Positions 5,162 to 31,127 of a stretch of DNA of 31,127 nucleotides are shown in pieces. The stretch's first letter is position 1, and the number at the start of each line of letters is the position of its first letter. The translations under genes were made by a program, and so were the position numbers. This stretch comes from a virus, in IMG/VR virus record IMGVR_UViG_3300040808_002645, positions 1-31,127 of that record, one strand, 5' to 3'. Under the pieces are notes generated by a model that saw only the letters and a list, made by a program, of their open reading frames with translations, was not told where the DNA came from and ran no database searches.

Positions 5162-6564
5162 GCCGCCCTCACCTTGATTCTTCCGACCTGCACGCCGTCA
5201 ACCACGCGCTCTATCGCATATCTGCCCGCGTCGAGTATATCTTTAACCGGATCATCTTTCGCGCCCCGGAATACCTCGCACGCCTTGATGAACCGCTCTG
5301 CTCTCGGATGCACCACAAGGTCACGCCGAGCCGACAAGACGTTTATCAGCCGCAGCCCCGCCGCCACCGAGCCCGCAAACTTGCGCGGGGTCGTGATCCA
5401 CTTCGTCTGGGCATAGGGCACACCTGACACGGCCGACAGGTAGCGCCGAAGCATGCCGTTGCTCTTCTGCTTGATGATCTTTCCCTCTTTCGCAGCCCTA
5501 TCCCCTACCCACTCGTCAACGTGCTCATACTTCAGCCCGTGCCGCTCAAGCATGTCGATGATTGCCCGTGCGTCTTGCTCGGGCGTCGTGTGCCCGTCGC
5601 TCGTGGTTTCGTCGATGACCCAGGCCTTGCCGTGCTCGCCGCGCAGCGCAGCCACGAGCACCGCTGCCTGTTTGCCCGCCTTCAAGCCGTGATCGATTCC
5701 GACCGCCAGCAGCGCCCCAGGCGGGATGTCGTGCAAATTGAACGGCTGGACGTTGCTTGGCCCGAAGCCCGTCAACCACCGATCCGTGACGATGGGATCC
5801 CAGCTCGCTTCGATGCGCATCGCGCGCTCAATCTCCGGCAGGCTTGCCGCGTACTGCTCGATCTCCGCCGTAGACAAGAACGGCCGCAAGTAGCCCGAGG
5901 GCCACGCGTTCTTCTCCGTCATCGTCGCGTGATGCTCGCGGAACACGCCCGACGTCACGAGCTCGCGCAACCACGCCTGGTCAGGCATGCTCGGCGTCGG
6001 GGTAAATGTGCACGTCATGTTGCCCGAGTGCGCCACGAGCCGCGCCACAACCTCCGAATAAATGCGCTCCGGCATCGGCTCGTCGCAATAGGCGTAATGC
6101 CACGTCGCACCGGCTTGCGACTGCGGCCGCTGCTGGTACGTGCGGATCTGTATGACCGAGCCCGCAGCAGGACCATAGACGAAGGGGATCACGGGATCCT
6201 TGACGCCGCAGATGCCGCGCCCGGCCTCAAAGCGGATACGCGGATCCACCTCGCCGGGCGGAATCATCGACCACAACTTCTCCAGCGGCCCCCCGGCTTG
6301 GCTCATCTGCTGGATGGACTCACCGATAAACCCAGCGTAAACCGGCCCACGATACCGCCGCGCCCGGTAGGGATTGGCCCCACGCAGCTCCATCACGAGA
6401 TCGGCCGTGCTGACCCAGGTCTTGCCGATCTGGTTGGCCGTGCGCGCGACCCTAAACCGCGAGCCGTCTGCGAGAAACTGCTTTTGCCAATCGCTCCAAG
6501 TCAACGCCGCGCACGGGTCCGAAGCATCCAGCGCCAACGCATCGTGCAGCGCATCGAGGATCAC
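5158..6564 (-). CDS. terL: Terminase large subunit
   Basis: The product has 468 residues and both expected domains. The N-terminal ATPase carries a Walker A variant at residues 41-50 (RTANQIGKTW) and a Walker B at 158-162 (YAYCDE, with D161 and E162). The C-terminal RNase H-like nuclease shows an acidic set in the right order: D291 in AVGIDHG, D355 in EWVGDRA and D445 in ILDAGRY. The enzyme cuts concatemeric DNA and pumps it into the prohead through the portal. It overlaps the upstream methyltransferase gene and the downstream portal gene by ATGA each. Full length and intact. I cannot tell cos from headful packaging from the sequence, although the closed circle and absence of an obvious cos region agree with either. 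Confidence 0.93.
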   Translation of the reverse strand: MILDALHDALALDASDPCAALTWSDWQKQFLADGSRFRVARTANQIGKTWVSTADLVMELRGANPYRARRYRGPVYAGFIGESIQQMSQAGGPLEKLWSMIPPGEVDPRIRFEAGRGICGVKDPVIPFVYGPAAGSVIQIRTYQQRPQSQAGATWHYAYCDEPMPERIYSEVVARLVAHSGNMTCTFTPTPSMPDQAWLRELVTSGVFREHHATMTEKNAWPSGYLRPFLSTAEIEQYAASLPEIERAMRIEASWDPIVTDRWLTGFGPSNVQPFNLHDIPPGALLAVGIDHGLKAGKQAAVLVAALRGEHGKAWVIDETTSDGHTTPEQDARAIIDMLERHGLKYEHVDEWVGDRAAKEGKIIKQKSNGMLRRYLSAVSGVPYAQTKWITTPRKFAGSVAAGLRLINVLSARRDLVVHPRAERFIKACEVFRGAKDDPVKDILDAGRYAIERVVDGVQVGRIKVRAA

Positions 6565-7871
6565 AACGACGCCCCAAACATCGCGATCTGCTTCCCGCTC
6601 ACCTCTTCGGCCGGCGACGCTTGCACGCCGTCAGACGCCGCCACGATGTCACGCCGGGCAGCCCACCTCGTGCGTATGTCGTCGATGTGCTCTGCTTCGG
6701 CGCCGTATAGGGTGAAGCCCTCGACATCGGCCGCGATCATGGTCGTGCCCGAGCCCAGGAACGGATCAAGCACGACGCCCCCGGCCGGCGTCACGAGCCG
6801 CACAAGATGCCGCATGAGAGACAGAGGCTTGACCGTCGGGTGACGTGTGCCCGCTCGCTCTCGTGGCGATGCCTTGGCCGTGTAGAAGTAGCGCGCGGCG
6901 GATCCGCCGTTGTCGTCGTGGCCTCGCATAGAGTCAGGGCCGCTTGGTCCCTTCCCGCCACCATAAATCGATCCGTGCAATTCGCCTCGCATAGACGCAC
7001 GCCCCGCCCCCGTCTCAGGCATCCCCGCCACGGCCGCCGCGCTGCCGTCGTGCATAAGGTTGGCGGGCCAACGGCCCAGAGACGTCTGACCTGCACTGAA
7101 CGAGCCGTTGATCCCGCTGCCGAAGGTATTGCACGAGCTATCCGATCTGCTCACTATCAGTTTGCGCCCACTAGCCGCAATCCGACAAGCCCCCACATTG
7201 ATTCCGCCCGTGCCCCAGCGCAGCACATTGCGCGCAATGCTGCTCTCGCTCAGGGGCTTGCGTGCCATCACGATTGGCTCGCACGCGGGCTTGAGGGCCG
7301 TGCCCCAGCCGTCGTATTGCTTCGCAGCGTCAGTGATCGGCTCGTGTTTTGGCTGACTTGCTGGCGATGCGAGATCGCGTCCCTCGAAGTCATCCCCGTG
7401 CCCGTATGCGTGATGTGCTTTGCCCCGGTGCTGCATTGCCCCTGCTTGCTTGTCGAGGGCAATGGCCACGTCATGCGACTTAGGGAAGCCCGAGCCGTAA
7501 ACCCACATCAGGCAATCGCGCACCTCGAAGCCCGCGAGCCGTATCGCCAACGTCCCGACGTCATACGTGCGCGTCCCGAAGAAGGCGAGCAGATGCCCGC
7601 CGGGCTTCAGTACCCGATGGACCTCCGACCACAGCGCCGGCTGCGGCACGAAGGCATCCCAATGCCGGCCCATGAACCCGGCGCCCTTTACCTCGTGATG
7701 CCCCGTCGTCATCCAGTCCCGCAGCATCGCCACGGCATCCGGCTGACGCCCGAGGCCATATGGGGGATCGGTTACCACGGCATCGACACTGCAATCGGGC
7801 AACCCGCGCAGCAGCTCGAGGTTGTCGCCAGCGTGCACAAAGTGCCGCCCGAACTCGTGCCGGGCGTTCAT
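6561..7871 (-). CDS. DNA methyltransferase, DPPY type, inside the terminase operon
   Basis: The product has 436 residues when started at ATG 7871, which overlaps the small terminase stop by ATGA; a longer reading frame upstream is just the terminase gene in another frame. The catalytic motif IV, DPPY, is at residues 35-38, and the S-adenosylmethionine motif with DPFLGSGTT is near residues 369-377, preceded by HPTVKPLSLMRHLVRL. This order (catalysis first, cofactor site last) is that of the beta class, whose DPPY members usually methylate adenine N6. Roughly 220 residues between the two would hold the target-recognition domain, including GSGFPKSHDVAIALDK, a pattern shared by many phage methyltransferases. 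No partner nuclease is present, so protection from host restriction or marking of packaged DNA is likely. Confidence 0.9.
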   Translation of the reverse strand: MNARHEFGRHFVHAGDNLELLRGLPDCSVDAVVTDPPYGLGRQPDAVAMLRDWMTTGHHEVKGAGFMGRHWDAFVPQPALWSEVHRVLKPGGHLLAFFGTRTYDVGTLAIRLAGFEVRDCLMWVYGSGFPKSHDVAIALDKQAGAMQHRGKAHHAYGHGDDFEGRDLASPASQPKHEPITDAAKQYDGWGTALKPACEPIVMARKPLSESSIARNVLRWGTGGINVGACRIAASGRKLIVSRSDSSCNTFGSGINGSFSAGQTSLGRWPANLMHDGSAAAVAGMPETGAGRASMRGELHGSIYGGGKGPSGPDSMRGHDDNGGSAARYFYTAKASPRERAGTRHPTVKPLSLMRHLVRLVTPAGGVVLDPFLGSGTTMIAADVEGFTLYGAEAEHIDDIRTRWAARRDIVAASDGVQASPAEEVSGKQIAMFGASL

Positions 7872-8371
7872 GCCAGCCGCCGCGCCGCGAGCTCCTCGAC
7901 GATGACCGCAGCGTGTCTCGGCGACACTTGCCGCACCATCCGCCTGATGTTGACCTCGACTTCTTCGGCCGTCATCGTCACTGACGATCCCTCTTCGGCC
8001 CGAGCTGCGCGCACGCGCTCGTAAAGGTCGATCTGCAGCTTCCGGCACGCGGGCACGCTGCCCATGCTGCCGAAGTTGCGCGCCTCCGTAATGTCGCGGT
8101 CAATCTGGACGAAGAGCGCCGCCCAAACATCCGACGCCCGAGGGCTGTCGAGCATGGCCACGGGGTTTAGCTCGGTCGTGCCGCTCGAGGGCACCGGCTC
8201 GGGCTCGATGCTGGCGACGTTGCCCGCTTGTGCCTCTTTCCACCACCGCTGCAGCGTCGGCCGACAGATGCCCAGGTCGCGCTTGGCTTGTGACCAGTTA
8301 ATACCGTCGCCGTCGTTGGCTCTCACCAGATAGCGCAGCGCAGATGTGCGCGTCTTGGCGTCGTGCCTCAT
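7868..8371 (-). CDS. terS: Terminase small subunit (HTH)
   Basis: The product has 167 residues. The N-terminus forms a helix-turn-helix (INWSQAKRDLGICRPTLQRWWKE, residues 24-46) of the kind that reads the packaging start site. The middle (residues 75-125) is helical and could build the oligomer ring, and the C-terminus (VEVNIRRMVRQVSPRHAAVIVEELA) may contact the large subunit. It starts at ATG 8371 after a GGGGGTAAACC ribosome site and is followed, with ATGA overlaps, by a methyltransferase and the large subunit. Identification rests on HTH, length and position next to terL; sequence conservation in this family is low. It is the first gene of the long late block. Confidence 0.7.
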   Translation of the reverse strand: MRHDAKTRTSALRYLVRANDGDGINWSQAKRDLGICRPTLQRWWKEAQAGNVASIEPEPVPSSGTTELNPVAMLDSPRASDVWAALFVQIDRDITEARNFGSMGSVPACRKLQIDLYERVRAARAEEGSSVTMTAEEVEVNIRRMVRQVSPRHAAVIVEELAARRLA

Positions 8372-9616: not shown

Positions 9617-10489
9617 TCAACCTGCACCGAGCACTGACCTGACGACTACTTCCGCCAGCTTGGGCGGCACGGCGTTACCGACTTGGCGGTATTGCTCGGT
9701 CAGCGTGCCTACGAAGACAGCCGCAGCCGGGAATCCCTGCAGCGTCGCGCACTCGGCCACGGTCAGACGTCGCCGACCGGTTGCGCGATAGAGCTGGTCG
9801 CTCGGTCGGTTGTCGCTCTTGCCTCGCTGCTCTGCGTAGGTGTGACCCTTGCCCTCTGTCGCGGTCACTGCGTGCGCCGGCACGTCAATGATGCGCCCAA
9901 GCCGCAACGCCTCGCCCATCGTCACCCAAGGCAGCCCATCGCCGCCGTGTGTCGTCGCTGGCTCCTCGACTCGATGCAGCCCGCACACAAGGAACACCCG
10001 CCGCCGATGCTGCGGCACGCCATAGTCTGCAGCATCCAGCGTCCAGACCTGCACCGACTCAAAGCGCCGCCGAGCCTCGACAACCACCACACGCTCCCAA
10101 TAGCAGCCTGGGCAGGTCATCGGGTCGCCGCAAGACTTCGTATGCCAGAGCAGCCCGCGCACGTTCTCGCAGATGAGCCACGTCGGCCGATGCTCGGCCC
10201 TATCGAGGGCATCGAAGACCCAGGGCCAGCCGTTGCGCTCGTCTCGCGCCCCGCGTTTAGCACCCGCCGAGCTCCACGCCTGGCACGGTGGCGATGCCCA
10301 CCACAAATCAGCAGCGACCGGCCGCCAGCCCCGCACGTCGCCCCGATGCAGCGGCACGTGCGGCAAGTTGAGCCGGTGAGCAATGCCCGCCAGCCGATCC
10401 AGCTCGACAGCTTGCACCAGCTCGCACCCGGCCGCCTCGATGCCCATCGAAGCGCCGCCAGCACCCGCGAACAGGTCTACCGCCTGCAT
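9617..10489 (-). CDS. C5-cytosine DNA methyltransferase
   Basis: The product has 290 residues from ATG 10489; the longer open frame upstream overlaps another gene and is not used. Motifs are in canonical order: I (DLFAGAGGASMGIEAAG, residues 5-21), IV with the catalytic cysteine (WASPPCQAWS, C69), VI (ENVRG, 108-112), VIII (QHRRRVFLV, 160-168) and X (QVGNAVPPKLA near the C-terminus). It adds a methyl group to cytosine C5 in a specific DNA site. The recognition part is short. A four-cysteine-like insertion (CGDPMTCPGC, residues 120-129, with a nearby His) may bind zinc. No cognate restriction enzyme is nearby. It is coupled to the upstream winged-helix-like gene by a one-base overlap. Confidence 0.93.
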   Translation of the reverse strand: MQAVDLFAGAGGASMGIEAAGCELVQAVELDRLAGIAHRLNLPHVPLHRGDVRGWRPVAADLWWASPPCQAWSSAGAKRGARDERNGWPWVFDALDRAEHRPTWLICENVRGLLWHTKSCGDPMTCPGCYWERVVVVEARRRFESVQVWTLDAADYGVPQHRRRVFLVCGLHRVEEPATTHGGDGLPWVTMGEALRLGRIIDVPAHAVTATEGKGHTYAEQRGKSDNRPSDQLYRATGRRRLTVAECATLQGFPAAAVFVGTLTEQYRQVGNAVPPKLAEVVVRSVLGAG

Positions 10490-10758
10490 CAGACATACCC
10501 AAGCAGCGCCGGCACCTCGAGCGCCCGGTCGGCATCGACAAGGCACGTAGCCCGCGACATCAGGTATCCGGCCTCGGTTGTCACGAGGGCATCCCATTGC
10601 CCATGCCCGAGCTCTACGACGACGAGCGACACGAGCCGCAGCCGCAGCGCTTGCTTGACCGTCCGCTTCGGCAGCCCGTTGACGCACACCGGCCCCCGAG
10701 CATGCTCGATGCGCTCGCATAGGCCGATCAGCTCCCACATCATCTTCTTGTCAGTCAT
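10489..10758 (-). CDS. Small winged-helix-like protein, 89 aa
   Basis: The start is ATG 10758, with an AGGGGTGAGC ribosome site; a further 19 codons upstream are open but reach into the repeat region and lack a site. The fold impression is a winged helix: helices with LPKRTVKQALRLRLVSLV, then beta strands and turn (ELGHGQWDALVTTEAGYLM). This resembles small DNA-binding regulators whose recognition helix is followed by TEAG. It is the first gene downstream of the repeat-rich control region, and so may be the protein that binds there or a gene controlled from there. No enzyme motif is seen. Confidence 0.55.
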   Translation of the reverse strand: MTDKKMMWELIGLCERIEHARGPVCVNGLPKRTVKQALRLRLVSLVVVELGHGQWDALVTTEAGYLMSRATCLVDADRALEVPALLGYV

Positions 10759-11129
10759 GCTCACCCCTGCTCTGTTCACACCGCTGCGAACAGATCGAAC
10801 GATAGAACGCTGCATATCCGCGCGTGTTCACACTGTTCACAAATGTGTGAACAACGATAAGGCAGTATGTAGCGCGTATATCTATAAAAATATTGGTTTT
10901 GTTCACATATTTAAAAAGGGTATACGCACGCGCGAAGCAAATCTCATATATCCGGCCGATATGCGATTTCCGGCCCCAACAACAATACCCCCTGCGCAGT
11001 GCGAACACGCGAACACCGGGCGATAATGACGGGCGAACCTGCGTTCACGTGTTCACACGCCGTGCGAACAGTGCGAACAGCCCCCGCATATTGGGGCTTG
11101 CTCGCCGGGTATCGTTGTTCACACGGGGT
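10759..11129. other. Candidate replication origin or master operator (short-repeat array plus AT-rich core)
   Basis: This 371-base gap has no gene. It holds about a dozen copies of an 8-base word, TGTTCRCA, in both orientations. Exact copies lie at 10773-10780, 10825-10832, 10834-10841, 10900-10907, 11050-11057 and 11116-11123. Complement copies lie at 10785-10792, 10846-10853, 11000-11007, 11063-11070 and 11072-11079. Near copies lie at 11008-11015 and 11042-11049. Between the two main clusters is the only AT-rich patch of the genome (about 10875-10925). Repeats flanking an easily melted core are the layout of iteron origins; a multi-site operator is the alternative. HTH and RHH-like genes flank it. 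Confidence 0.6.
10834..10853. repeat. Perfect 20-base inverted repeat inside the origin/operator region
   Basis: TGTTCACA AATG TGTGAACA is a perfect 8-base inverted repeat with a four-base spacer. It has the geometry of a dimeric DNA-binding protein's operator and is preceded directly by another copy of the same half-site at 10825-10832. Confidence 0.8.
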
Positions 11130-11603
11130 CTAGGGCTGCTCACGTGACGTCATCAGCGACAGCAGCGCCCGACGCACGCCGGCCGGGCTTCCGTGATGCT
11201 CGACGACATCGAGGGGCACACGCAGCACCGCTCGGCCGCGCTGGTCATCCTCGCCGCTGACGGGCTCCATAGGCCCCAGCATGTCACGCACGACGCCGAG
11301 CATGCTCATGCCGGCCCGATGCGCCTCAAGCGCCACAAAGGCGTGCAGACGCTCCGAGACGCGCACGTGTATTGACCGAACCAGCGACACCGGCCGCCCG
11401 GTCTTGACTGGCAGCCCCAGCAGATACCGCAGCCGCACCACAACCTTGCGCAAGTATCGGTCAGACCGCCCCGCATCGAGGTAGCGCAACTGGGCCTCGC
11501 CATAGTCGAGGGCAGACAGCCCCGGCCGTGTCGGGTGAGGCAACGCCGCGAGCTCGGCCCGATGTTCTGCGAGCAGCGCCCGCAGCTTATCGGCCGCTGT
11601 CAT
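11130..11603 (-). CDS. Ribbon-helix-helix-like DNA-binding protein, 157 aa
   Basis: The product has 157 residues from ATG 11603, which overlaps the stop of the upstream HTH gene by ATGA. Residues about 76-110 have the pattern of a ribbon-helix-helix: a short strand with alternating residues (SIHVRVSERL), then two helices (HAFVALEAHRAG and MSMLGVVRDML) joined by a Gly turn. Such proteins bind repeated short operators as dimers. The N-terminal 60 residues are helical and charged. The gene ends seven bases from the last TGTTCACA repeat, so binding to those repeats is a reasonable inference. A role in regulation, replication control or partition cannot be distinguished. Confidence 0.55.
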   Translation of the reverse strand: MTAADKLRALLAEHRAELAALPHPTRPGLSALDYGEAQLRYLDAGRSDRYLRKVVVRLRYLLGLPVKTGRPVSLVRSIHVRVSERLHAFVALEAHRAGMSMLGVVRDMLGPMEPVSGEDDQRGRAVLRVPLDVVEHHGSPAGVRRALLSLMTSREQP

Positions 11604-12550
11604 TCGCCCGCCGCAAACAGCCGCCCGAACAGTCGCCGCCAAGCTCCCGCGCCGTCATAGCGCACGAGTCCCGCTGCGATGGCTTCGCGTTGCTCTCGGC
11701 CGTCGTCGAGCTGCTGCTGTAACGACTGCACGAGCGCCCGCAGCGTCGCCACTTCTTCGGATACCTCGAGGATTCGGGCCTCTTGCGTGCGCACGACTTC
11801 GATGCACTGCGCTAGACGGTCGTCGATGACTTGCGGCTCGGGCACCACTTCGGCCTCGGGCTGCGTGTCGTCGTTTTGCGACAGGTCAACGCGAGCCGTC
11901 GCCGCAGCCTCCGACACGTCAACCAAGCGCACCTGGCGGCCGTCGCGCGACTCTGTGCGCACGTCAACCTTGCCATGTTGTGCCCATCGTCGAACCGTGC
12001 TTGACGCCCTGCCTACCCTCTTCGCGGCTTCGGGCACCGTTACCCAGTCGCTCGATGGTGCTTCGCGCTCATCGTCAGCGACGGCACGCACCCACAGCCA
12101 CGTCTTGTAGATCACATCACGCTCGCACCACTGCGGCCGGGCTGCGATGCGTCGCACGAGCTCGTCAAACTGCTTCGGCAACGTCACGCCACTGCGCAGC
12201 ATCACCCGAAGGTGCTGGGCATAAGACAGGCTCATCGCGCTATCGTGCGCCCCATATTCGATGATGTGATCACGGCACATCGTGTCGTAGGCAGTCTGGG
12301 CGCCCGCTCGCACTGCATCTTGCAGCCACACGCCGCTGACTTTGCTCTTTAGCCGCGCATTGCCCCGCATGAACGCAACGATTGCAGCGGTATTGTAGTA
12401 CCGGCAATGTCTGCCGGGACCGGCGCCGGCCATATAGTCAACCTTTCCGCGTGCAACGAGCTTGCACAGCATCGAGTCACTGATCCCGAGCACCTGCACG
12501 ACATCGGCCATTCGGAGATACAGAGGCGCCGTGTATAGCTTCCCGGTCAT
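11600..12550 (-). CDS. DNA-binding protein with two HTH domains and a coiled coil
   Basis: The product has 316 residues from ATG 12550, with the best ribosome site in the genome (AGGAGGTGA at 12555-12563). It has an N-terminal excisionase/MerR-like HTH (residues 9-63, with LYLRMADVVQVLGISDS), a helical middle (65-160) rich in Trp and Arg, a second HTH (168-215, with WVTVPEAAKRVGRASSTVRRWA), an acidic Pro/Glu linker, a coiled coil (243-292) and a short basic tail. Two DNA-binding domains and an oligomerisation helix suit a protein that bridges repeated sites. It lies two genes from the repeat array, so it is a candidate replication initiator, partition protein or repressor. No family is recognised over its full length. 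Confidence 0.65.
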   Translation of the reverse strand: MTGKLYTAPLYLRMADVVQVLGISDSMLCKLVARGKVDYMAGAGPGRHCRYYNTAAIVAFMRGNARLKSKVSGVWLQDAVRAGAQTAYDTMCRDHIIEYGAHDSAMSLSYAQHLRVMLRSGVTLPKQFDELVRRIAARPQWCERDVIYKTWLWVRAVADDEREAPSSDWVTVPEAAKRVGRASSTVRRWAQHGKVDVRTESRDGRQVRLVDVSEAAATARVDLSQNDDTQPEAEVVPEPQVIDDRLAQCIEVVRTQEARILEVSEEVATLRALVQSLQQQLDDGREQREAIAAGLVRYDGAGAWRRLFGRLFAAGE

Positions 12551-13898: not shown

Positions 13899-14070
13899 GG
13901 TTACCCCCTGCTCGGTTTTGCGCCTGGATGATTAGGCGCCCCTCAAACTCTATGCGCCGCTCTTCGGCCACCTCAAGACAAATCAGATCCGCGCACACTT
14001 CCCGGCATCGGTCGTCGGGCCACGGGATCGTCAGATCGACGGCATCGCCGCCGCAGAATGCGCAGATCAT
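13885..14070 (-). CDS. Small Cys-rich protein, possible zinc ribbon, 61 aa
   Basis: The product has 61 residues, from ATG 14070 (ATGA overlap with the helicase gene). Cysteines lie at residues 3, 6, 22, 26 and 31 (CAFCGG, then CREVCADLIC), which could hold a zinc ion in a small ribbon or knuckle. The C-terminal half is helical and polar (EVAEERRIEFEGRLIIQAQN). It follows the helicase and may be a replication accessory or regulator. The metal site is inferred from spacing only. Confidence 0.6.
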   Translation of the reverse strand: MICAFCGGDAVDLTIPWPDDRCREVCADLICLEVAEERRIEFEGRLIIQAQNRAGGNHGEQ

Positions 14071-16106
14071 GCGTACCTCTCGAACATGCTCATGGGTATG
14101 CGGTAGACGCTGGCAGTCTGCCCGGCGATCCTCGTGCGCACTGTCCGGCCGCGTGAGCTCGCCGTTGTCTCGATGTAGCCCGACTCATGCCACCGCTCGA
14201 TGGTGCCTTCATCGAAGCCGCCGCGTCGCAGCCACTCTCGGACCACGTATTCGAGGATGTCCACGCTCTTCTCGTGATTCCAGCGCCCAGCAAATCCGCC
14301 GTGAACAGGCCGATACAGCCGCTCGTCTTCGGCCGGGTCTTGTGCTGCGGGCTTCTCACACCCGGTATGCCAAAACCGCGCCCGCTCCGCTGCGCATCGC
14401 TGCATCACGTATCGCAGCGCCGCAAGGGGCTGGTCTGCGTCTTCGGACCCGTGCCGGCAGCTTGCGAGGGCCGCCGCCCACACGTCGCACTCGGGCTCCG
14501 GCACCCCGACAGCATGCACGAGGTAGGCCGCGACCTTGAGGGCCGCCACAATGCGCCCCAGCCGCTCGGCTACTGCACCGTCAGCCTTTAGGGCACGAGT
14601 CAGCCGCTTGCTCTCGTCGGTGAATCGGGCTTTAAGGTCGCCCCAATCGCCCGCCAGCAGATGACGCACGACACGCCGCCCCAGGTGCCCGTGATGCGTC
14701 TCGGCGCCGAGCTGCACACGCCGGGCAACCTCGCCCGATGCCAGCGGTGAACCGATCAAGCAGAGCACACGAGCCCGAGCCCCTGCATCCTGGGTGAAGC
14801 TCGTCAACCGCTGCTCTCCCGAGCTGTCGCCCGCGCTTGACCACTTCTCCGTCGCCCGCAGCCCGACCGCCCGGCCGTTGCTTCCGGGCTTGCCGCGTAT
14901 CGCCCCGGTGCCGTTGCCGTGCATGTAAACAACGGCCGCCACGTCATCCGGCCGCCGTGCCTCTTTCGAGTCGTCCAACATCAGCGGCAAGTCTCGCAGC
15001 GTAGCGGCTCGGGCCTCGACGCCGGCCTTCGAGGTATTCCAACTCGGCACGGCTCGCGGGTCTTGCCAAACGGCCGCCGCCGCTTTGCCGATGGTGCTCT
15101 TGCCTTGCGATGTGCGTCCGCTGCGGTCGATGAACCACGGCGTGCCCAGGTCCAACGGCCGCACAAGGATGGACGCAATCTGGTTGTACGTAGACAGCCA
15201 GAACGCCTCCGAGCTCGCCGCGGGCTGCACGACTTCTTCGAGGTAGCCCGACCAGGTGCCCGCCGTGCCATATGCCGCCGCCAGCGACTCGACGCCATCG
15301 TCTGACATCAGGTCTACGCCTGGGTCATCCGGCCGCCCGATGTACTCGCGACCGGCTAGGAATCCTCTCGGCTCGCCGTCCCGGTAAATCCACCCGAGCC
15401 GCGATGACACGTCACGCCTGGGTATCCTCGTCTCGTTCTTCGTGGTCGCCTCATCCAGATACCGCACGACATCCGAGGCAGACACGCTCGTGATGCTGGC
15501 GCCGTGCGTCGCGAGCTCCGCCACAAGCTCACGCGATGACGCCGCCACGGCCCGAGGCACAATCCGCCGCACGATGCCGCCGCCGAAGGACCGCCAGCAG
15601 ATGCGCAGCGCATCGCCCGCGCCGTTTACCTCGCTCAAGTATTGGTCAATCCAGATCGGCCGCGACGTGATGCGCACCGCGCCCTGTTCCGTGTCGCGAT
15701 ACAGGCCCGCCGCGCTGCAGATGTAGGGTTTCGGGTCTTGCCATCCTTTCGGCAGGTCCGCCCCCACGTCGCCCCGCTGCACGGCGTCGGGCAGGTCATC
15801 CGGCCGCGCTTTCAGCGCCCGCCGTAGCTCGGCCACACGCTTACTGCCGCCACGCACGTTGCCCAGCGTCGCGAGCCAGTGCGCCACCTCATCGCGATAC
15901 GCTGCGGTCATCTGCCGCAGCCGCCGTATGCGCTCGGGCTCAAGCCACGCCGTGATTCCCTCGAGGTCGCCCGCAGCGACGGCCGCCGCCGTCTCGGTCA
16001 TCTGCTCGCGTGTCGTGCCGGTCTGGTCGTCCATGATGTAAACCCTCGCAATCTCGCCGATGTCGGGCTTGATCGGTTGCTCGTCTGACTTGTCGTCTCG
16101 CATCAT
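14067..16106 (-). CDS. Replicative helicase of the DUF927 type
   Basis: The product has 679 residues. The P-loop (SGRTSQGKST, residues 329-338) lies in a context typical of DUF927 helicases: STYNQIASILVRPLDLGTPWFIDRSG. It is followed by a Walker B-like LPLMLDD (373-379) and a segment with GNGTGAIRGKPG that resembles the Gly-rich loop before the arginine region. Upstream, GWIYRDGEPRGFLAG also fits that family. The C-terminal 200 residues are helical and end in a winged-helix-like part (VVREWLRRGGFDEGTIERWHESGYIETT). Directly downstream of a primase with ATGA overlap, it is best read as the unwinding motor of the phage replisome. Two ATG codons (16106 and 16103) are equally possible starts. Confidence 0.8.
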   Translation of the reverse strand: MMRDDKSDEQPIKPDIGEIARVYIMDDQTGTTREQMTETAAAVAAGDLEGITAWLEPERIRRLRQMTAAYRDEVAHWLATLGNVRGGSKRVAELRRALKARPDDLPDAVQRGDVGADLPKGWQDPKPYICSAAGLYRDTEQGAVRITSRPIWIDQYLSEVNGAGDALRICWRSFGGGIVRRIVPRAVAASSRELVAELATHGASITSVSASDVVRYLDEATTKNETRIPRRDVSSRLGWIYRDGEPRGFLAGREYIGRPDDPGVDLMSDDGVESLAAAYGTAGTWSGYLEEVVQPAASSEAFWLSTYNQIASILVRPLDLGTPWFIDRSGRTSQGKSTIGKAAAAVWQDPRAVPSWNTSKAGVEARAATLRDLPLMLDDSKEARRPDDVAAVVYMHGNGTGAIRGKPGSNGRAVGLRATEKWSSAGDSSGEQRLTSFTQDAGARARVLCLIGSPLASGEVARRVQLGAETHHGHLGRRVVRHLLAGDWGDLKARFTDESKRLTRALKADGAVAERLGRIVAALKVAAYLVHAVGVPEPECDVWAAALASCRHGSEDADQPLAALRYVMQRCAAERARFWHTGCEKPAAQDPAEDERLYRPVHGGFAGRWNHEKSVDILEYVVREWLRRGGFDEGTIERWHESGYIETTASSRGRTVRTRIAGQTASVYRIPMSMFERYA

Positions 16107-16981
16107 CGCCCCGCCAGCGTCAAAAGGTAACGCCCCAGCCCATCACGGTATCCGCAGCTTTTGGCATGGTCGCACATCGCCGGGCCGTCGCTGTCGATAT
16201 ACCACCAGACCGAGCCACGGCCGCAGCTCGGGCACAACGCCCGCCGAGCCCGTGCCCCGTCAGCCGTCAGCTGTCCGCCGCACTGCTCGACTGCTCGCCG
16301 CCGCGCCGCAGAGTCGCACTGCATCACTTCGATGACCGCCCGCGCTTCGTCGGCTATCGTGTCCACCCGTCGCTGCAGGGCTGCGGCTCGTCGCTCGGCC
16401 TCTTCGGCTCGTCGCTTCTCTCGGTCTAGGTGCTGCTCGTGGAGCTCGACTGCTCTCGGCAGCAAATCGAGCAACGGACCCTCAATGCCGATGCGCATGT
16501 GCGGGCCGCCGTTGCCGACGCACGGCACGTAGTACATGCGGCACGGGTCGCTGCACGCCGGGTCTGCTGGAATCCCGAGCCGCTGCATCGTGTCGCGATA
16601 CACCCGCGACCACATGCGACCGGGCACTGGTCGCTCAAGGGGCACCACGACTCGGCAGCGGTGCTCGTCGTCCGTGTGGCTCCAAGTCGTATAGACGATG
16701 TGCGCGTATCGGCTCCATCTCGACGCCGCTGCAGCTACCGTCTCGCCGTTGTCGTGGTCTAGGACCAGGCAACTGACCTCGACGACGTGCGACGCTCGCC
16801 GCGTGCCCTCGATGCGTGCCGGCGACCACAGCGGAGCCGCTTGCAGTCGCTCCTCCTTCGTGCCCGTATGCGGCCGGTACTTCGTAAGCGTGTCGCGGAG
16901 TGCTTCCCACGTGAGATCACGGTGTATCGGCGTCGTCTCGCGCGTATGCGGATACCACGCCGTCGCCCAAGTTTGAGCCAT
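16103..16981 (-). CDS. Primase of the archaeo-eukaryotic (AEP) type with C-terminal zinc ribbon
   Basis: The product has 292 residues from ATG 16981, with a GGGGGAAC ribosome site. The active-site pattern of AEP primases is visible: VLDHDN (D75 and D77), then YTTWSHTDDEHRCRVVVPLERPV (S101, H107 and R108) and DPACSDPCRMYYVPCVG near residue 140. A long charged coiled coil follows (residues 182-215), then a zinc ribbon, LCPSCGRGS with a second pair CDHAKSCGY. It makes RNA or DNA primers for the phage fork. The zinc ribbon is last here, whereas it is first in DnaG-type primases. It is coupled to the helicase gene. Confidence 0.8.
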   Translation of the reverse strand: MAQTWATAWYPHTRETTPIHRDLTWEALRDTLTKYRPHTGTKEERLQAAPLWSPARIEGTRRASHVVEVSCLVLDHDNGETVAAAASRWSRYAHIVYTTWSHTDDEHRCRVVVPLERPVPGRMWSRVYRDTMQRLGIPADPACSDPCRMYYVPCVGNGGPHMRIGIEGPLLDLLPRAVELHEQHLDREKRRAEEAERRAAALQRRVDTIADEARAVIEVMQCDSAARRRAVEQCGGQLTADGARARRALCPSCGRGSVWWYIDSDGPAMCDHAKSCGYRDGLGRYLLTLAGR

Positions 16982-17083: not shown

Positions 17084-17527
17084 TTAGAACGGAATGTCAT
17101 CGTCGGCCGGCCGCTGGCGATACCCGCCGCCGCCGCCGTTGCCTCGACTGTCGCCCCGGCCGCCGCTGTCACGCCCGCCGCCGCTCGGTCTGCTGCTGTC
17201 GCCCTTACCGCCGATGAACGCGACGCGATCCGCGATGACTTCGGTGCTGTATCGCTTCTCGCCCGTGTCCGTCTCCCACGATGACGTGCGCAGCTTGCCC
17301 TCGATGTAGCACTGCGAGCCCTTGCGAAGAAACCGCCCCACATTGTCGGCCGTGCGACCAAAGCAGACCACGCGGTGCCACTCGGTATGATCGACCCATT
17401 GATCGCCGTCTTTTTGGCGCTCGCTGGTCGCGATGCTTAGGCGGCAAACCTGCGTGCCGCTGCGTGTCGTCTTTACCTCGGGATCCCTGCCCAGGTTGCC
17501 CACGAGTATCACCTTATTGACCGTCAT
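17084..17527 (-). CDS. ssb: Single-stranded DNA-binding protein
   Basis: The product has 147 residues with a classic bacterial-type SSB layout. The OB fold (residues 1-108) carries [15 protein letters not shown], the [17 protein letters not shown] strand and [19 protein letters not shown] Gly/Arg/Ser-rich flexible linker follows, and the acidic tip DDDIPF ends the protein. That tip recruits host replication and repair proteins such as polymerase subunits, RecO or primase. The start is ATG 17527 with GGGGGAACG; it overlaps the upstream gene by 14 bases. SSB coats single strands during replication and during RecT-mediated annealing. It is intact and full length. Confidence 0.95.
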
Positions 17528-17834: not shown

Positions 17835-18746
17835 GTGGTACAGCAATATCTCACGCACAGCGCATGGCTCGATGCCAGGCGTGCGAACTACGCTATCGGG
17901 GCGTCTGACGTCGCAAAGATTATCGGGGCGTCCGCGTATGGCTCGCCGTGGTCTGTCTGGCTGGCGCATCATCGCCCGTCCGAAGAGGATGGCATCCCCG
18001 AGCACTTCCAGCTTGGGCACGATCTGGAGCCCGTGACGCTGCGGGCTTACGGCCGCCGCGAGGGCATCGAGATCACCCACATGGATCGGGCTATCTACCG
18101 GCATCCGAAGGTCGATTGGCTGCAGATGAGCCCCGATGGCATCACCGGGCCGGTCGATGCCCCGACCGCGCACTATGAGGCCAAAGCATGCATGAACGCT
18201 GCCGTCGCGGGCAAGCTGCCGCCCTCCGAAGAGATGCCCGCCGACGATTGGACCGTGCCCGATTGGCGTTATCAGATGCTCTGGCAGTTTGCCGCGTGCC
18301 CGTCGCTGAAGACGAACACGCTCTGCGTCATGCTGCCGTGGTTTGAAGTCCGCTCCTACACGCTGCGCCGTGAAGACGTCGCTAAAGACATCGGCGATCT
18401 CGTGATGCACGTCGCCCGCTGGCGAGAGACCGTGTTGCAGACCAAGACGCCGCCGCCCGCCGACAGCTCGAAGGAGTGCACGGCCGGCGTGAACTGGTTG
18501 CACCCGGCGCCCGACGATTGGGCCAAAAAGACCGACGACCGGCCGCGCCGTGACGCTACGCCCGAAGAAGCCGATCTCCTGATGCGCTACGCCGATGCGA
18601 AAGACGCAGAAAAAGCCGCCAAGACGGCCGCCGCCGCGCTGCGGAATCAATGCGTGCCCCTGTTTGGCGAGCACTACCAACTCAACCTCGGCGACGGTGC
18701 ACGGGCAACCTGCAACGCCCGCCGCACGATTACGGTGAAACGATGA
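17835..18746 (+). CDS. YqaJ-type (lambda-exonuclease-like) recombination nuclease
   Basis: The product has 303 residues from GTG 17835, with an AAGGGGG ribosome site at good spacing. The PD-(D/E)xK nuclease core is visible: IGASDVAKIIGASAYGSPW (residues 21-39), LGHDLEPVTLRAYGRR (60-75), the catalytic D101 in SPDGI, E115 and K117 in YEAKA, and Q147 in RYQMLWQF. Such enzymes chew 5' ends to give 3' overhangs for annealing by the partner protein encoded next. The C-terminus has a helical tail rich in Ala/Lys. The ATG of the annealing protein overlaps the stop (ATGA). GTG start and coupling are consistent with tightly balanced expression of the pair. Confidence 0.88.
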   Translation: MVQQYLTHSAWLDARRANYAIGASDVAKIIGASAYGSPWSVWLAHHRPSEEDGIPEHFQLGHDLEPVTLRAYGRREGIEITHMDRAIYRHPKVDWLQMSPDGITGPVDAPTAHYEAKACMNAAVAGKLPPSEEMPADDWTVPDWRYQMLWQFAACPSLKTNTLCVMLPWFEVRSYTLRREDVAKDIGDLVMHVARWRETVLQTKTPPPADSSKECTAGVNWLHPAPDDWAKKTDDRPRRDATPEEADLLMRYADAKDAEKAAKTAAAALRNQCVPLFGEHYQLNLGDGARATCNARRTITVKR

Positions 18747-19357
18747 CTACTGCCCTAGAACCTGCGGAGCTCGATGTGCTCGCCCGCGTATGCGGTACGC
18801 TCGCGAAGTCCACACTGATCCCGCGCGACTTTCAGCGCAGCCCCGAAAACTGTCTGGTCGCGCTGCTGATTGCGCGCAAGATGGGCGAGGATCCGATCAC
18901 CCTGATGCAGCACATGTATATCCTGCACGGCCGCGCTTCATTCTCGACCGCCTACATGATCGCCCGGGCCAATGCGTCGGGACGTCTTCGCGGCGTCATC
19001 ATGTGGGACGTCGAAGGGACGGGCGCTGATATGGTCGTGACGGCCTATGCCACGCTCGCCGAGACCGGCGACCGCCTATCGTGCACGGTCAGCATGCAGA
19101 TGGCCAACGCGGAAAAATGGACCAAAAACAGCAAGTACCGCACGATGCCCGAGCTCATGTTGCGGTATCGGGCAGCCTCGCAGCTTATCCGCTTGTATCT
19201 GCCCGATGTGCTGCTCGGGTACAGCACCGACGAGATGCAGACCACGCACGCGCGCGAAGAGCCCCAGGTGGTGCACCTGCAGTCATCGCCTGTCGATGAT
19301 TGGGAGAGCGCCCTAGCTACGCCCGCAATCACGGACACGTCCAGCGCCGCGGATTGA
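18743..19357 (+). CDS. RecT-like single-strand annealing protein
   Basis: The product has 204 residues from ATG 18743, overlapping the exonuclease stop. RecT-type pattern: STLIPRDFQRSPENCLVALL, then ARKMGEDPITLMQHMYILHGRASFS and AYMIARANASGRLRG, followed by strands (MVVTAYATLAETGDRLSCTV) and the conserved-looking WTKNSKYRTMPELMLRYRAASQLIRLYLPDVLLG. These proteins coat 3' overhangs and anneal them to complementary strands, often beside SSB at a fork. It is shorter than the textbook 260-270 residue proteins, mainly at the C-terminus, which is a variable acidic tail. It forms a two-component recombinase with the upstream nuclease. Confidence 0.8.
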   Translation: MTTALEPAELDVLARVCGTLAKSTLIPRDFQRSPENCLVALLIARKMGEDPITLMQHMYILHGRASFSTAYMIARANASGRLRGVIMWDVEGTGADMVVTAYATLAETGDRLSCTVSMQMANAEKWTKNSKYRTMPELMLRYRAASQLIRLYLPDVLLGYSTDEMQTTHAREEPQVVHLQSSPVDDWESALATPAITDTSSAAD

Positions 19358-30483: not shown

Positions 30484-31127
30484 CAATACACCCGCTTATG
30501 CTTCGCGCCGTATGTCCAGGGCACACGCGGCGAGCTCCGCCGAAGCAACGGCGTGCCGTGTCGCCGGTCGTCATCTGCGAGCCCGTCTTGGTCAAGGTCA
30601 ACACGGTAACGGATGCGCCCCAGTGCTGCCTCGGCTGACTGCCGATGCCGTGCCGCCATGTCGGCATAATCCGGGCTGGCGGTCGCGAAAGCATCGAAGG
30701 TGTACGCCAGCGCCAGCTCCCGCACGCCGGGCGCCAAGCTGTCTACGTCCACAATCGCGTCGGGCCACTGTCCGCCCATCACCAGCCGCTCCAGCGTGTC
30801 AGCCCACGCCAGATCAATAAAGCCCTGCAGGTTAGTTGTAGACGTCCCGAGCAGCGACGCAAGCCCCGGGATCCGTTGCTCGAGGTCCGCTTGAGTCGTC
30901 GGGCAATAGATCGGCTCTCGTGCCAGATAGCCCGGCCGCTGTCCGACCGTCACGGTACCGTCAGCGAAGGTCAGATCCCACCGCTCGCGATACCCGCCGC
31001 CATAGGGCAGCGTATCCGGCAGGTCATCAGCCGGGATCGAATACGTCGCGACATCGGAGACAACCGAGATCGCGCCCGTCGATACCGTCGCACCGTCAGG
31101 GCCTACCAGCGTATACGTGCCCGAGCT
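30483..31127 (-). CDS. Head-tail adaptor protein, C-terminal part (gene crosses circle join)
   Basis: Continuation of the gene that begins at 247 on the other side of the circle join; the reading frame is open through the 127-base overlap. The full product is 254 residues. The middle carries a motif typical of head-tail connector/adaptor proteins: a short helix with IPGL followed by an amphipathic helix containing AWADTLERL, then a small domain with ALAYTFDAFA and a basic C-terminus. Such proteins dock on the portal ring and form the interface to the tail. The stop TGA overlaps the ATG of the next gene at 30483. Assignment rests on these short patterns and on position, so the family is likely but the exact class (gp6-like or other) is not settled. 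Confidence 0.6.
   Translation of the reverse strand, partial: SSGTYTLVGPDGATVSTGAISVVSDVATYSIPADDLPDTLPYGGGYRERWDLTFADGTVTVGQRPGYLAREPIYCPTTQADLEQRIPGLASLLGTSTTNLQGFIDLAWADTLERLVMGGQWPDAIVDVDSLAPGVRELALAYTFDAFATASPDYADMAARHRQSAEAALGRIRYRVDLDQDGLADDDRRHGTPLLRRSSPRVPWTYGAKHKRVY
31001..31127. repeat. Right copy of 127-base terminal overlap
   Basis: Exact copy of bases 1-127. Counting it once gives a 31,000 bp circular genome. The head-tail adaptor gene on the minus strand stays open through it. Confidence 0.95.

Follow-up and report, generated by a model that had tools for sequence, protein, structure and literature searches.

An array of TGTTCRCA words packed around an AT-rich patch in a phage genome raises the question of what the array does and which protein reads it. 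Hardly any phage that is known only from metagenomes has an assigned replication origin; here an origin can be assigned for a complete environmental phage from its anatomy and from a family-wide comparison. The window, i.e. the whole stretch of 31,127 nucleotides that was analyzed, is a complete genome map, because bases 1-127 recur at its end as bases 31001-31127; this gives a circular map of 31,000 bases. A megablast of the window against phages found no close relative, and single-protein scans of viral contigs with the helicase and with the RHH protein of the window found none either. Most likely this phage starts its replication at the array; its own DUF927 helicase would bind the words with a C-terminal winged helix and melt the AT-rich core.

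The array is composed of the following elements; plus and minus signs give the strand of each word.
10773 to 11123: iteron array, with exact words in both orientations and near copies.
10773 to 10853: left iteron block, with words at 10773 (+), 10785 (-), 10825 (+), 10834 (+) and 10846 (-).
10854 to 10925: AT-rich core and candidate melting region, which falls to 27% GC and contains a single word, at 10900 (+).
11000 to 11123: right iteron block, with words at 11000 (-), 11008 (-, one mismatch), 11050 (+), 11063 (-), 11072 (-) and 11116 (+).

The whole window contains eleven exact TGTTCRCA words (six on the plus and five on the minus strand), and every one of them lies inside the array. The mean in shuffled genomes was 1.86, and a count of eleven was reached in none of 100 shuffles. 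A twelfth word with one mismatch (TGTTCGCG) is located at 11008, and several GTTC half-words occur in the same stretch. The densest cluster of an exact 8-mer per 351 bases is formed by TGTGAACA with seven copies; in 60 genomes simulated with a dinucleotide-Markov model the best cluster of any 8-mer averaged 3.4 copies, with a maximum of 5. Each block contains a tandem pair with a spacing of 9 bases, and the two pairs are in mirror orientation (10825/10834 on the plus strand, 11063/11072 on the minus strand); beside these mirrored pairs, each block also has words of opposite orientation. In addition, a perfect inverted repeat of 15 bases (GTGTGAACAACGATA) pairs 10845-10859 with 11110-11124. The AT-rich core adjoins the left block. 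The GC content over 60 bases has its minimum of 27% at 10857; the only 60-base windows of the genome below 40% GC are all in the array stretch, and elsewhere no such window falls below 43%. No credible gene was found in 10759-11129, which is flanked by an RHH-like gene ending at 11130 and by another gene starting at 10758. These results bear out what an earlier note had read from this DNA, namely eleven exact words in both orientations with near copies, the only AT-rich patch of the genome and a region devoid of genes; the genome-wide count of the word, which the note had suggested as a check, shows the enrichment. The cumulative GC skew, which the same note had proposed as a check, falls steadily through the array with no turning point; it is uninformative because it is dominated by the genes, nearly all of which are on one strand.

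A position in the intergenic gap upstream of the gene at 10489-10758 and of a methyltransferase operon would also suit a multi-site operator, from which a phage regulator controls the genes on both sides and at which no replication starts. However, a search with a simple consensus found no sigma-70-like promoter in 10400-11700, twelve words in 351 bases exceed the need of an ordinary operator and, as described below, such arrays track the helicase gene across phages; we therefore consider an operator very improbable. An operator of the LexA or ParB type, suggested by the GTTC/GAAC core, was dropped as a candidate. LexA operators have the form GTTC-N7-GTTC or GAAC-N4-GTTC, and the tandem spacing of 8-9 bases in the array is unlike these spacings.

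The genes on one side of the array form an early cluster on the minus strand in the order SSB, primase-like protein, helicase, small genes, two-HTH_17 protein and RHH-like protein.
17084 to 17527, minus strand: SSB, a single-strand DNA-binding protein (phrog_44, 1.1e-50).
16103 to 16981, minus strand: primase-like protein of 292 aa with a zinc ribbon (phrog_9765, 1.7e-16); the gene overlaps the helicase gene.
14067 to 16106, minus strand: DUF927 AAA+ (MCM-like) helicase of 679 aa with a C-terminal Cch-type winged helix (HTH_56).
11600 to 12550, minus strand: protein with two HTH_17 domains (2e-8).
11130 to 11603, minus strand: RHH/HicB-like protein (a weak match, 0.0029); the end of the gene is the edge of the array.
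17835 to 19357, plus strand: YqaJ exonuclease and RecT.

The 292-aa protein is probably the primase partner of the helicase. Beyond the RHH-like gene the order continues with the array, DNA methyltransferases, RusA and packaging genes. The phage encodes C5-cytosine and N6/N4 DNA methyltransferases (9617-10492 and 6561-7875) as well as RusA near the putative origin and the packaging genes.

The helicase belongs to a family of known initiators. Pfam detects DUF927 (1.2e-26) and, slightly below the curated cut-off, the Cch helix-turn-helix HTH_56 (1.9e-5); the Walker A motif is intact, with invariant G335 and K336. Whether sequence or fold is compared, SaPIbov1 Rep (8tch) and SCCmec Cch (5dgk) are its only significant relatives in the PDB. 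The match to 8tch reaches 1.7e-19 with a single sequence. In fold comparisons, for which a model with a mean pLDDT of 79 was used, the helicase aligned with 8tch over 467 residues (VIA Z 30.5; Foldseek 1e-24) and with 5dgk over 493 residues (VIA Z 31.5; Foldseek 3e-22). The winged helix occupies about residues 554-679, and this part of the model resembles TcpK, a winged helix that was solved with oriT DNA (Z 12.6, 95 residues, rmsd 2.4).

The system of the staphylococcal pathogenicity island (SaPI) SaPIbov1 is like the window in several respects. It has an MCM-like AAA+ helicase as initiator with a C-terminal DNA-binding winged helix, a primase gene beside the helicase gene and numerous short iterons that surround an AT-rich stretch. 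In SaPIbov1 this AT-rich core is flanked by two iteron sets in opposite orientation; the two blocks of the window have mirrored tandem pairs, but each also contains words of the other orientation. Origins of the SaPI Rep/Cch type follow the initiator gene on its downstream side, as a rule directly, although adjacency is not strict. The window differs from SaPI in that it is a phage and not a satellite, has a high-GC genome, uses the word TGTTCRCA and has blocks of mixed orientation; moreover, its array is not adjacent to the helicase gene but 2.9 kb away from it, downstream in the direction of transcription, with small genes between. The SCCmec Cch/Cch2 system has the same helicase fold; it differs by the only three iterons of 5 bases in its putative origin, by residing in an integrative cassette element and by the partner of Cch2, which is an A-family polymerase primase (PMC7581432). 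The isolated C-terminal domain of Cch2 binds its own origin, where short AAGTG repeats follow the Cch2 gene; SaPI Rep has been reported to read iterons through its C-terminal domain (PMC7581432).

The same combination of a DUF927 helicase and a word array around an AT-rich core occurs in other phages. When viral contigs were scanned with a pattern of three TGTTCRCA words, one of those identified was L004, in which eleven words surround an AT-rich patch and begin 9 bases after the gene for an 877-aa Prim-Pol/DUF927/HTH_56 protein. The earlier note had recognized no phage family with this word as its iteron; L004 now provides the same word beside a helicase gene, and the words of L094, L097 and L104 are one base off. 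Phages in which such helicases are annotated (Faecalibacterium phage FP_Epona, Thermoanaerobacterium phage THSA-485A, phiRg507T2_3, AC844P1 and Jekyll) have an intergenic gap at the equivalent place with other words, for example AGGTGAAAC in FP_Epona and GGTAACCG in THSA-485A. In the modules of FP_Epona, THSA-485A and L004 the array directly follows the helicase gene, unlike in the window, and in several of these modules the primase is fused to the helicase.

A scan with a helicase alignment provided 80 loci, which were analyzed with an automatic cluster finder for 8-mers; an array was defined as at least 5 copies of an 8-mer between -150 and +400 of the helicase stop codon. By this definition 39 of the 52 viral loci that were non-redundant had an array, and in the remaining 602 kb such clusters were found at five loci only. 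Three of these five (L059, L064 and L084) are displaced arrays with words of the family, 2.7-4.5 kb downstream. New non-redundant prophage loci from GTDB gave an array in 25 of 45 cases, and L124 and L162 had displaced ones in addition. Altogether the displaced arrays of these five relatives lie 2.3-4.5 kb from the helicase gene, and the genes between are small accessory genes, which by inspection include DNA methyltransferase-like genes in two loci. The separation of 2.9 kb in the window therefore has a precedent. The iteron origin proposed in the earlier note is also the best fit to these data on homologous helicases with arrays.

The distance between helicase and array leaves room for a different binder: the array could be an origin at which a separate initiator, the two-HTH_17 or the RHH-like protein, binds the words and recruits the helicase. 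The genes for these two proteins lie directly at the array, whereas that of the helicase is 2.9 kb away, and in phiRg507T2_3 (L022, 6440-6616) a small gene with the annotation of a DNA-binding regulatory protein is likewise found between helicase and array, comparable to the RHH-like gene of the window. Yet no relatives of the HTH_17 protein, the RHH-like protein or other small nearby proteins were found at 88 helicase loci, which nevertheless have such arrays; the RHH and HTH_17 proteins also had no phage match. In addition, the word co-varies with the winged helix of the helicase (see below). A separate initiator is on this evidence unlikely. Thus, among the nearby HTH, RHH-like and winged-helix-like proteins that the earlier note had suggested for gel-shift tests, the HTH_17 and RHH-like proteins are less likely as general binders; they may act locally, for example by controlling access to the origin. 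The DUF927/Cch-type helicase is the likelier binder.

The words beside these helicases form a family. The consensus words have AG[GT]NGNAAC(A) in common, and GTG[TC]GAACA of the window falls inside this frame; members include AGGTGAAACA, AGGTGTAACA, AGGAGTAACA, AGTGGTAACA, AGTGGGAACA and AGTGCGAACA. The word profile of the window is nearer to the family than in all 200 column shuffles. The repeat of Cch2, AAGTGGTA (PMC7581432), also fits the frame and agrees with the family word AGTGGTAAC of L092 and L163.

Listing the loci by word class indicated that subtypes of the winged helix track the words. Over 46 loci the distance between words correlated with the distance between winged helices (Mantel r 0.66; 0 of 2000 permutations); since relatedness affects both distances and is removed incompletely by the permutations, this correlation is not a proof. 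The correlation with the distance between ATPase cores was lower (r 0.48, 46 loci). The partial correlation was 0.55 for the winged helix given the core and -0.23 for the core given the winged helix. A co-variation of this kind would be expected if the winged helix read the words directly. We give an even chance to the more general proposal that the DUF927/Cch-type phage helicases share a readable code, in which the iteron word is determined by the winged helix at the C-terminus. The helicase sequence of an uncultivated phage would then suffice to find its origin and to predict the word, even where, as in the window, origin and gene are kilobases apart. In the present case the word is not predictable from the winged helix alone, because the latter is just 15-25% identical to that of any relative.

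TGTTCRCA is not confined to DUF927 helicases. A scan for the word returned 16 contigs with up to 11 words per 400 bases; the control scan with the reversed word returned 5 contigs, in which no stretch of 400 bases had more than 5 words. Dense arrays are present at L003 2571-2762, L016 1722-1893 and L012 7761-7900, beside other phage replicative ATPases of the AAA_25/RepA-like, RecA/AAA_25-like and VapE-like types. The word alone was for this reason rejected as an identifier of the binder. Short words of the GTG-GAAC kind may recur, or may be common to unrelated initiators, given that these arrays adjoin RepA/AAA_25-like and VapE-type ATPases. In L015 (526-791) seven words occur within a small-terminase-like gene and around it, beside the large terminase; this is a possible packaging or origin site. 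Repeated words are indeed also a property of partition and packaging sites, and the array of the window could by analogy serve partition, like a centromere, or packaging. But the families searched included no ParA/ParB-like gene of the window, and the terminase genes of the window are several kilobases away and have no words; this explanation hardly deserves any weight.

Taken together, this high-GC phage most probably has an iteron origin of the SaPI Rep/Cch type in the array, at a distance from the gene of the initiator. The binding, ring assembly, melting and initiation that we infer for the array would proceed as follows. Subunits of the DUF927 helicase would bind the TGTTCRCA words by their C-terminal winged helix, and ring helicases would assemble on both word blocks. 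The rings would then melt the AT-rich core between the blocks and unwind outward, while the primase-like protein and SSB would support priming and stabilize the single strands. The points against this mechanism are the 2.9-kb gap, the low identity of the winged helix, the occurrence of the same word beside other ATPases and the lack of support from the skew. A system of this kind is already known; the part worth following is the set of helicase-word pairs across the family, which offers a candidate recognition code that can be tested. With dozens of such pairs, the choice of an origin by self-loading helicases becomes a direct question of binding.

Two further observations concern the cores of these arrays. 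The AT-rich cores of the window (10929-10942) and of L004 (8993-9006) have CGCGCGAAGCRAAT in common. This sequence is not claimed as a second core motif: by a rough estimate from one pair it is expected by chance in about 1% of cases, it is absent from all other loci and, with respect to the helicase gene, it lies on the other strand. In L056, L085 and L097 the cores between the word blocks contain a dyad like ACACCTACACCTTG...AAAGGTAGGTG, which is possibly a second origin element in one subgroup.
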